From Natronolimnohabitans sp. A-GB9 (lineage in GTDB: Archaea; Halobacteriota; Halobacteria; Halobacteriales; Natrialbaceae), in NCBI RefSeq assembly GCF_030848565.1, contig NZ_JAVDDV010000008.1, forward strand, positions 1-64,000: a stretch of DNA of 64,000 nucleotides, given 5' to 3'. Position 1 is the first letter of the stretch. Every line of letters begins with the position of its first letter. The notes under the pieces were generated by a model. It was not told where the DNA came from and did not search any database. It saw only the letters and a list, made by a program, of their open reading frames with translations. Shown here one piece after another: positions 30,496-33,262 of this stretch. The position numbers and the translations under genes are program-made.

Positions 30496-30742
30496 TTCGA
30501 CAGCGTGACTCGAGGCGTATGCACTCGAGCGACGGCGTAAGACAGCCGTCGGTACGGAGACGAGACAGACGATCTATTCCGAGAGAAACGCAAGACTGCA
30601 GTCCGCTCTTCCCACTTCGAACGCCGTAAGACGATCGCCTCGCTTCGCTCGGCGCTGTGACTTCCGAGCCCTCGTTCGCTCTGCTCACGGGGACGGGGAA
30701 CAAGTCGATCTACAGTCGACTACGAATTAGCTCGAAGAGAAG
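30496..30742. other. Intergenic stretch between sensor kinase and tRNA-Tyr
   Basis: No ORF with coding character. It contains two GTAAGAC half-sites (30537-30543 and 30626-30632), the same motif that clusters upstream of cdrS, a CTCGCTTCGCTCGG low-complexity patch (30639-30652) and, at 30693-30721, a partial copy of tRNA-Tyr. Confidence 0.6.
30693..30721 (-). repeat. Partial tRNA-Tyr duplicate
   Basis: 29 bases match tRNA-Tyr positions 30762-30790 with one mismatch, covering the anticodon arm, variable loop and the start of the T stem. It is in the same orientation, 69 bases downstream of the real gene. It could be a remnant attachment site of an integrated element or a local duplication. 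Not a functional tRNA. Confidence 0.75.
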
Positions 30743-30816
30743 TCCGCCCTCCCCGATTTGAACGGGGGACAAGTCGATCTACAGTCGACTGCTCTACCAG
30801 TCTGAGCTAAGGGCGG
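30743..30816 (-). tRNA. tRNA-Tyr (anticodon GTA)
   Basis: 74 nt on the minus strand. Acceptor CCGCCCT pairs with AGGGCGG, discriminator A. Anticodon stem GTCGA/TCGAC holds loop CTGTAGA (anticodon GTA). The T arm is CCCCG-TTCAAAT-CGGGG. The C1:G72 first pair is the archaeal tRNA-Tyr identity feature. No intron, no encoded CCA. Confidence 0.96.
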
Positions 30817-30935
30817 TCGCATCTCAACATAGCCGGCCTGGATAATATAAGGGTTATCATTCGCAGTCAGATTCTTGGATAGCTGACAGTGAAGATTAAT
30901 ATATCTGGACTATCAATTCCTCCACTATAGCGGCG

Positions 30936-31652
30936 ATGAGCAAGATCACGTTCCGCGCCGACGACGACCTCGTCGAGCAACTCGAGGCCCTCGAGATCTC
31001 GAAAAGCGAGGCGATGCGTGAGGCGCTGCGGTCGTATCTCGGCGCCGACAGCGAGCCTCGAGAGCGGAGCGTGGAGCGTGAGCGGACGGACACGACTCGA
31101 TCGGGTGCCATCGACGACCTGATCCGCGACCGCGTCGACGAGCTGCTCGAACGACGACTTCGTGACCTCGATCTCGAGTCCCGACGGGAGCCCCGGCCGC
31201 GTAATACGGACGAGGTGACGGTTACGGTCTCGCTCGAGGGAGACCAAACTCGGGACCGCCGGCGCGTCGACGATCGCACGCGGGACCGCGAACCACGATC
31301 GGATCGACACGAGCGTCGCAAACGCGACAACTCTCGCGGGCACACCGGGAACGACGGAAGCGAGTCACACCGGCGAGACCGTCGGCAGTCGGACCACGAC
31401 GAGCGTAAGACAGCCCGAACCGAGACGACGGCGGACGAGACAGGGCCGTCCGACGACGGACGGACCCAGTGTGGCCAGTGTGGTGAGTCGGTGTCTGACG
31501 ATCACGTCTATTGCCCGAACTGCGGCGGGAAGGTCTCTCGACGGCTGTTCTGTGAGTGTGGCGACGAGGTTCGCTCGGACTGGTCGTTCTGTCCCGGCTG
31601 TGGGCGTCGGACACCTTCGGCGGACGTCCTCGGTTCCGATCGTCCTACATAA
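30936..31652 (+). CDS. cdrL: CdrL, ribbon-helix-helix and zinc-ribbon regulator of cell division
   Basis: 238 aa. The N-terminal 45 residues form a ribbon-helix-helix DNA-binding unit (MSKITFRADDDLVEQLEAL...SEAMREALRSYL). A long charged linker follows, and the C-terminus carries zinc-ribbon motifs (CGQCG...CPNCG and CECG...CPGCG). This architecture, directly upstream of cdrS-ftsZ2, is that of CdrL, described in haloarchaea as a regulator of that operon. TATA TTAATATA (30897-30904) predicts a short leader. It also contains one internal GTAAGAC (31405-31411), possibly fortuitous. Confidence 0.9.
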   Translation: MSKITFRADDDLVEQLEALEISKSEAMREALRSYLGADSEPRERSVERERTDTTRSGAIDDLIRDRVDELLERRLRDLDLESRREPRPRNTDEVTVTVSLEGDQTRDRRRVDDRTRDREPRSDRHERRKRDNSRGHTGNDGSESHRRDRRQSDHDERKTARTETTADETGPSDDGRTQCGQCGESVSDDHVYCPNCGGKVSRRLFCECGDEVRSDWSFCPGCGRRTPSADVLGSDRPT

Positions 31653-31660
31653 CGACTAGT

Positions 31661-31832
31661 GTAAGACACAGAAAGTCGTGTCCGACGAAAGCTTTATTGT
31701 GAATGCAAGTCTTCCACTTATTCGCGTAAGACGGTCGTCTTACAGCGGACGGCGAATACCGAAAAACGCCCGATGTCGGGCGGTTCCGGTGTAAGACACG
31801 TCGCGTCTGACAGGGGCGCGCCACCGTCTTAC
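31661..31832. promoter_or_regulatory. Candidate operator cluster for cdrS-ftsZ2 (GTAAGAC sites)
   Basis: In the 198 bases between cdrL and cdrS the heptamer GTAAGAC or its complement appears at 31661-31667, 31726-31732, 31737-31743, 31791-31797 and 31826-31832, plus GTCTGAC at 31805-31811. Sites 31726-31743 form a perfect palindrome, GTAAGACGGTCGTCTTAC, with 8-base arms. Such paired half-sites suit dimeric ribbon-helix-helix proteins, so CdrL and/or CdrS binding is likely. The protein-site link is inference. Confidence 0.7.
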
Positions 31833-31850
31833 CCAACGGGGAATACAACC

Positions 31851-32036
31851 ATGGAGCGTGTGACACTGCGAATCCCGAAACAGCAGATCGAGGAGGTCGA
31901 ACAGCTCGTCGACTCCGGCGAGTTCCCGAACCGGAGCGAAGCCATCCGGTCGGCCGTTCGAGAGATGATCAACGAGCAGCAACAGAACGACGGACCAAAC
32001 GAGCAGTCCGGTAAACGAACCTGGGCCAAGGTGTAA
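31851..32036 (+). CDS. cdrS: CdrS, short ribbon-helix-helix cell-division regulator
   Basis: 61 aa, essentially one ribbon-helix-helix: strand MERVTLRIP, helix [15 protein letters not shown], helix [15 protein letters not shown], then a polar Gln/Asn-rich tail. CdrS controls ftsZ2 and other division genes in Halobacterium and Haloferax. ftsZ2 begins 2 bases after its stop, so the two are cotranscribed. The ATG at 31851 lies 18 bases after the last GTCTTAC site. An in-frame extension upstream would read through the operators and is rejected. Confidence 0.95.
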
Positions 32037-32038
32037 CG

Positions 32039-33262
32039 ATGCAGGATATCGTACAAGACGCCCTCGAGAACGCCGAACAGGAAGCCCGGGAGATGGACGC
32101 CGACATGGACGGCGACGAGTTCGGCGATCCGCGGATCGTCATCGTCGGCTGTGGCGGTGCGGGTAACAACACGATCAACCGCCTGTACAACATCGGCGTC
32201 GACGGCGCAGACACGATCGCCATCAACACGGACAAACAGCACCTCAAGATGATCGAGGCCGACACGAAGATCCTGGTCGGCAAGTCGCTGACCAACGGTC
32301 TCGGTGCTGGCGGCGATCCTTCGATGGGCGAACGCGCAACCGAGATGGCCCAGAGTACGATCAAGGAGGTCCTCGGTGAGGCGGACCTCGTGTTCGTGAC
32401 CGCAGGCATGGGTGGCGGGACCGGTACCGGTGCCGCCCCCGTCGTCTCGAAGATCGCCAAAGAACAGGGCGCGATCGTCGTTGGCATGGTCTCGACGCCC
32501 TTTAACGTCGAGCGCGCACGTACCGTCAAGGCCGAGGAAGGGCTCGAGAAACTGCGCGAGCAGGCCGACTCGATCATCGTCCTCGACAACAACCGGCTGC
32601 TCGACTACGTCCCGAACCTCCCGATCGGCAAGGCGTTCTCGGTGATGGACCAGATCATCGCCGAGACCGTCAAGGGAATCTCGGAGACGATTACCCAGCC
32701 CTCGCTGATCAACCTGGACTACGCCGACATGTCGACGATCATGAATCAGGGCGGCGTCGCCGTGATGCTGGTCGGCGAGACCCAGGACAAGAACAAAACC
32801 GACGAGGTCGTCAAGGACGCGATGAACCATCCGCTCCTGGACGTCGACTACCGCGGCGCCTCCGGCGGGCTGGTCCACATCACCGGCGGTCCCGACCTGA
32901 CGCTGAAAGAGGCAGAGGGAATCGCGGACAACATCACGGAGCGTCTCGAGGCCTCCGCGAACGTCATCTGGGGCGCGCGCATTCAGGAGAATTACAAGGG
33001 CAAGGTCCGAGTCATGGCGATCATGACCGGAGTACAGAGCGCACAGGTGCTCGGTCCCACCACCCAAAAGCAGGCCGACAAATCCCGTGCGAGTATCGAG
33101 GACGTTACCGACGCCGACTTCGATGCGAGTAACAACGTCGAGGACGTCGGCTCGTCCTCGAGTTCGTCTAGCTCTCACGGCACCGGTTCCGGCTACGGAG
33201 CCCACAGCGACGGCGGCCGCGAAGAGGTCGAAAAGCACAACGGCGTCGACGTGATCCGGTAA
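32039..33262 (+). CDS. ftsZ2: Cell division GTPase FtsZ2
   Basis: 407 aa, tubulin/FtsZ superfamily. Nucleotide-binding glycines are in VGCGGAGNN (near 40) and the tubulin signature [12 protein letters not shown] (near 125). The T7 loop NLDYADM supplies the catalytic Asp. The FtsZ2 type carries an acidic N-terminal extension ([26 protein letters not shown]) and a long Ser/Gly/His-rich tail after residue 350. FtsZ2 acts with FtsZ1 in haloarchaeal constriction. Expression is coupled to cdrS. Confidence 0.96.

Follow-up and report, generated by a model that had tools for sequence, protein, structure and literature searches.

A conserved GTAAGAC heptamer cluster upstream of cdrS-ftsZ2 as a candidate CdrL operator in haloarchaea

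The region between cdrL and cdrS in Natronolimnohabitans sp. A-GB9 holds a cluster of GTAAGAC heptamers that very probably serves CdrL as its operator for control of the division operon cdrS-ftsZ2. From comparison of sequences, GTAAGAC is best read as the operator word of CdrL, and the lone GTCTGAC in the same cluster is best read as a CdrS half-site. A preliminary description of this DNA had offered the motif as a specific code for CdrL or CdrS; our results support such a code, with GTAAGAC fitting CdrL and GTCNGAC, here GTCTGAC, fitting CdrS. The timing of division in archaea is largely unknown. Separating the likely CdrL word from that of CdrS would make both networks predictable in any haloarchaeal genome, and single-heptamer swaps can test them.

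The heptamer cluster and its conservation in haloarchaea

The genes and sites of the locus are listed in Table 1. From this point on, the window means the whole stretch of 64,000 nucleotides that was analysed. Both neighbouring genes encode ribbon-helix-helix (RHH) regulators, as had been proposed, with CdrL and CdrS each scoring above the Pfam RHH_1 cut-off, and cdrS is co-transcribed with ftsZ2 in relatives (PMC7439475, PMC8406309).

Table 1. Genes and putative regulatory sites around the cdrL-cdrS gap (window coordinates)
Feature	Position	Strand	Remarks
Site corresponding in position to the CdrS-type pair found 5' of the cdrL TATA box in other haloarchaea	30870..30887	+	Degenerate here, right half AGCTGAC
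cdrL	30936..31652	+	Pfam RHH_1 and DZR, both above cut-off; SKITFRADD ribbon-helix-helix and double zinc ribbon; putative GTAAGAC reader
cdrL-cdrS gap	31653-31850		198 bases; houses all six heptamers
GTAAGAC heptamer 1	31661..31667	+	5' of BRE/TATA
Putative BRE (CGAAA) and TATA element (TTTATT), cdrS-ftsZ2 promoter	31686..31698	+	Conserved in 80 loci
Candidate core operator, GTAAGACGGTCGTCTTAC	31726..31743		Two inverted heptamers, N4 between; GTAAGAC at 31726 (+) and at 31737 (-)
GTAAGAC heptamer, predicted 5' leader	31791..31797	+	
GTCTGAC, CdrS-type heptamer	31805..31811	+	Natrialbaceae-specific
GTAAGAC heptamer, predicted 5' leader	31826..31832	-	18 bases 5' of cdrS start
cdrS	31851..32036	+	61-residue ribbon-helix-helix regulator, ERVTLRIP; NCBIfam NF058555 (CdrS) above cut-off; Pfam RHH_1
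ftsZ2	32039..33262	+	Pfam Tubulin and FtsZ_C

The five GTAAGAC and one GTCTGAC that had been described within 198 bases all lie where they had been placed. The core had been called a perfect 18-base palindrome, which its asymmetric centre rules out; it reads GTAAGACG-GT-CGTCTTAC, an 8+2+8 inverted repeat with 8-base arms in which 16 of the 18 bases are symmetric. By chance, 198 bases should contain 0.015 copies of GTAAGAC, and the probability of at least five copies is about 6e-12, computed for a word chosen post hoc; because the word is conserved in relatives, that choice is no longer a worry. Elsewhere in the window there are five further copies, as many as chance would give (4.8 per window), of which those at 30537, 30626 and 31405 were rejected as sites, being at chance level. 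The first two (30537-30543 and 30626-30632) form a doublet 89 bp apart between a PAS histidine kinase gene and a tRNA-Tyr gene (30742-30816), probably by chance; the sequence near 30600 is similar to a tRNA fragment. The leader also contains a short hairpin, CGCCCGATGTCGGGCGG (31766-31784), found in the window and near relatives and absent in other families, and near it a TC-GGCGGTT stretch of moderate, unexplained conservation.

To follow the motif in relatives, 80 named haloarchaeal loci were gathered by a CdrS scan, and further genomes brought the set to 114. Absence from relatives, which the preliminary description held would refute the motif, was not encountered: all haloarchaeal cdrS promoters examined contain GTAAGAC. 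All 114 loci carry at least two copies 5' of cdrS and 72 carry five exact copies, with a mean of 4.5 per promoter versus 0.02 in shuffles. In the 80 loci the offsets are nearly fixed, with one heptamer 5' of the TATA box, a pair just 3' of it and two in the leader; the position class of heptamer 1 recurs in other families, there mostly in inverted orientation. The core spacer is N4 in 69 of 98 loci and N5 in 17, with a range of N2 to N6. We found no earlier report of the GTAAGAC motif in the set of open-access papers searched.

Genome-wide pattern searches place the core pair in the A-GB9 genome once only, at the cdrS promoter. Similar searches return GTAAGAC-N4/5-GTCTTAC in 368 of 391 haloarchaeal genomes, as a single copy in 366 of the 368, while a reversed-pattern control is absent in all but one of the 391. 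Of the 23 genomes without an exact pair, 20 yielded the cdrS locus, and a variant persists in all of them: GTATGAC substitutions, a spacing of 2, 3 or 6, GTGAGAC or, in Haloquadratum-type genomes, direct repeats of 10 bp. The other three, G083 (an 85% complete assembly), G303 and G391, gave no genuine match to cdrS. One of the two genomes with more than one copy, G310, has its second exact pair at C1:32069-32086 (L308), with no gene start found within 260 bases. In the A-GB9 genome itself, an everted pair, GTCTTACACGAGTAAGAC, occurs at G000:C40:4436-4453 (L310) just 5' of a MazE/AbrB-like antitoxin gene; it may be chance or the site of another regulator.

The assignment to CdrL draws on published occupancy. 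By CdrL ChIP-seq in Halobacterium salinarum, the only reproducible genomic site is upstream of cdrS-ftsZ2 (PMC7439475), the same promoter, regulator gene and single genomic target as here. That study names no DNA motif (the word "motif" is used 0 times); added here are a candidate binding word, the geometry in which it occurs and its conservation across the class. GTAAGAC fits CdrL because the site is unique in the genome, matches cdrL in phyletic range and lies in the promoter that bears the CdrL peak. The occupied region that contains it is known from another species (PMC7439475) at promoter-level resolution, and we infer contact with the heptamers themselves. The word is present with cdrL, which lies directly 5' of cdrS in 104/104 haloarchaeal loci examined, and not elsewhere (114/114 loci versus 1/60 outside the class); this match represents a single evolutionary contrast, one event, and the loci are not independent. 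Other observations count against a CdrL operator. The spacer range of N2 to N6 is looser than a rigid tetramer permits, and one core half-site is changed to GTGAGAC in G146, a genome taken as H. salinarum, the organism of the CdrL ChIP, by one protein (bacteriorhodopsin, 100% identity). Autoregulation of cdrL through the same word was rejected, as GTAAGAC occurs in only 2/81 cdrL upstream regions.

The CdrS code and relatives outside the class

CdrS ChIP-seq in Haloferax volcanii yielded 18 sites and a symmetric motif, with the cdrS promoter not listed (PMC8406309 Table 1); the tenth base of that motif lies at -50 of ftsZ1 (PMC8406309). Of these published targets in relatives of Haloferax, ftsZ1 has a conserved GTCRGAC-N4-GTCTGAC some 50 bp upstream of where its TATA box predicts the start, in agreement with the -50 required by that study, and hisB has GTCAGAC-N4-GTCTGAC. 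The A-GB9 genome likewise carries a CdrS-type pair just 5' of ftsZ1 (L211). GTCNGAC-N4-GTCNGAC thus fits the place of the published motif at ftsZ1, the comparison being with its text description. It does not account for all published CdrS sites, since dacZ has one good half-site only. Other CdrS-type pairs (L208-L220, L305, L309) lie near hisB, near a DUF6432/DUF7093 divergent pair and upstream of an H. salinarum GTPase gene, all likely CdrS targets. CdrS therefore appears to read GTCNGAC, a sister code, at ftsZ1, hisB and often cdrL, which would leave GTAAGAC for CdrL. In contrast to the single target here, the H. volcanii CdrS regulon has many targets, excludes its own promoter and differs in the middle bases of the word. 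The core of the window, GTAAGAC-N4-GTCTTAC, is not of the CdrS type; only the isolated GTCTGAC at 31805 is.

This isolated heptamer belongs to a wider pattern. A CdrS-type pair matching at least 10/12 bases lies shortly 5' of the TATA box of cdrL in 52/103 loci (0.5 expected). Among Natrialbaceae, GTCWGAC occurs in the cdrS leader of 46/49 loci and the cdrL-promoter pair in only 10, whereas in the other families GTCWGAC is seen in 0/54 cdrS leaders and the pair in 41/54 loci. This contrast between families marks the GTCTGAC at 31805 as genuine and lineage-specific; it is perhaps a CdrS input moved from cdrL to cdrS. The right half of the cdrL-promoter pair is an intact GTCTGAC in the nearest relative, Natronolimnohabitans innermongolicus (L002).

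A different arrangement is found outside the class Halobacteria. CdrS was located in 393 genomes of the phylum, and 60 loci were taken outside the class, all 60 with an FtsZ-type motif downstream. Their cdrS promoters contain GTCWGAC in 58/60 cases and GTAAGAC in 1/60. GTCWGAC averages about two copies per promoter, as opposed to 0.013 in shuffles, and the distance from one related heptamer to another is an exact multiple of 11 bp in 149 of 153 cases. Exact GTCWGAC-N4-GTCWGAC pairs occur twice genome-wide across 20 of these genomes, both times at cdrS. No CdrL with RHH and DZR was found in 21 outside-class genomes, a search in which three haloarchaeal controls match at full length, and no RHH-zinc-ribbon neighbour was seen at the first 20 outside-class cdrS loci.

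Control of the division operon thus seems to have passed from CdrS to CdrL. We consider it probable that the handover took place at the haloarchaeal origin, the arrival of cdrL recoding the operator of a CdrS-autoregulated ancestor and freeing CdrS as a wider regulator; this reading uses one evolutionary contrast in which the many loci are not independent. Ancestrally, CdrS would have regulated cdrS-ftsZ2 through an 11-bp lattice of GTCWGAC heptamers. Once cdrL arose next door, the entire operator would have been recoded to GTAAGAC, with CdrS free to acquire a wider regulon (ftsZ1, hisB, cdrL). The DNA-reading strand is K-I-T-F-R in CdrL and R-V-T-L-R in CdrS, and its positions 3, 5 and 7 are invariant (K3/T5/R7 and R3/T5/R7, respectively); Haloarchaeobius CdrL has V instead of F at position 6. 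The specificity change may perhaps stem from the first strand residue, Arg in CdrS and Lys in CdrL. In most haloarchaea other than Natrialbaceae, the CdrS site at the cdrL promoter would close a regulatory loop. If this is correct, it is a clear natural example of one regulator taking over a division operon from another with the same fold; both codes are still legible, the old one in the outside-class relatives and the new one in haloarchaea.

The outside-class arrays, being of CdrS type and at the cdrS promoter, also lend something to the alternative that CdrS itself binds the haloarchaeal heptamers, alone or in a mixed complex with CdrL. This RHH protein is encoded next door, and the window retains one GTCTGAC. 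Although GTCNGAC differs from GTAAGAC at one or two positions only, the former is what CdrS targets bear, and across the phylum GTAAGAC follows cdrL, not cdrS. In Halobacterium, ftsZ2 falls (1.3- to 2.2-fold) when cdrS is lost, so CdrS may also act at this promoter; its own promoter is nevertheless missing from the Haloferax ChIP-seq list (PMC8406309), even though every Haloferax locus retrieved has an intact pair. Autoregulation by CdrS through GTAAGAC is accordingly unlikely.

Mode of action at the cdrS-ftsZ2 promoter

With CdrL as the reader, we infer that each GTAAGAC is a docking unit for one CdrL RHH dimer; the spacer tolerance of 2 to 6 suggests such independent units. Two inverted heptamers at an 11-bp interval would form the core at the predicted start of transcription (near 31720-31725), and single heptamers flank it in the leader and 5' of the TATA box. 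Counted from the first T of the TATA element, the core begins 33 bp downstream here and 29-33 bp downstream in 92/93 scored loci. This placement suggests repression, and we regard repression or throttling of cdrS-ftsZ2 by CdrL as fairly likely. Occupancy of the core would most likely hinder initiation or promoter escape and early elongation, and the outer heptamers could add occupancy or aid contacts between dimers.

The heptamers could instead act in the mRNA leader, where GUAAGAC and GUCUUAC would pair into hairpins controlling translation or processing. All four leader heptamers can pair, with an RNAalifold consensus of -16.8 kcal/mol, and post-transcriptional control of ftsZ2 has been reported (PMC8303175). 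The covariation term is only -0.23, however, and the arms are nearly invariant; for want of covariation support this explanation was rejected, and it is very unlikely on other grounds also. Pairing mostly ends at the heptamer edge, one heptamer, located 5' of the TATA box, changes orientation from family to family, the Haloquadratum 10-bp direct repeats cannot pair together, and relatives outside the class have GTCWGAC arrays in the same place. Least probable of all is another DNA-binding protein reading GTAAGAC, which would need a single genomic target and the phyletic range of cdrL, with the CdrL ChIP-seq peak at exactly the cdrS promoter.

Related regulators and viral sequences

In Arc and omega-type operators, one dimer binds each short subsite, direct or inverted, with subsites about one helical turn apart in Arc and one heptad apart in omega. 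The cdrS promoter has the features of such an RHH operator: CdrL and CdrS carry the domain (Pfam RHH_1), and the 11-bp core pair repeats a short subsite about one turn apart, as do the Haloquadratum direct repeats and the 11-bp lattice in relatives. The Arc and omega systems differ in being of phage and plasmid origin, with sequences unrelated to the heptamers here. Among solved structures, NikR is the closest to CdrS and also the top, though insignificant, match for CdrL. The half-site of the Escherichia coli NikR operator, GTATGA-N16-TCATAC (PMC7055735), shares the GTNNGA word type, and some cdrS promoters naturally carry the variant GTATGAC. NikR is, however, a nickel-dependent tetramer with half-sites two turns apart, and CdrL has zinc ribbons in place of the nickel domain. 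aCcr1 of Sulfolobales is an RHH repressor of archaeal cell-cycle genes (cited in PMC12284271). The RHH domain of CdrL matches the NCBIfam aCcr1 model, though below the family cut-off; CdrL also differs in having zinc ribbons, and aCcr1 acts in archaea with ESCRT-type division.

Viruses of Sulfolobales reportedly mimic aCcr1. The GTAAGAC pair is contained in 56 viral contigs, which by a rough estimate is about chance for 14 fixed bases, given the size of the collection. Hijacking of the operator by viruses was rejected, as the two most suggestive contigs (by G+C or local heptamer count) lack nearby cdr genes, and no viral CdrL was found. One viral contig (L375, IMGVR_UViG_3300046060_000019; 47 kb, G+C 0.62 in the fetched part) encodes at 1501-1665 a CdrS relative of 53% identity that retains the R-V-T-L-R strand and, by analogy, may mimic the division regulator of the host.
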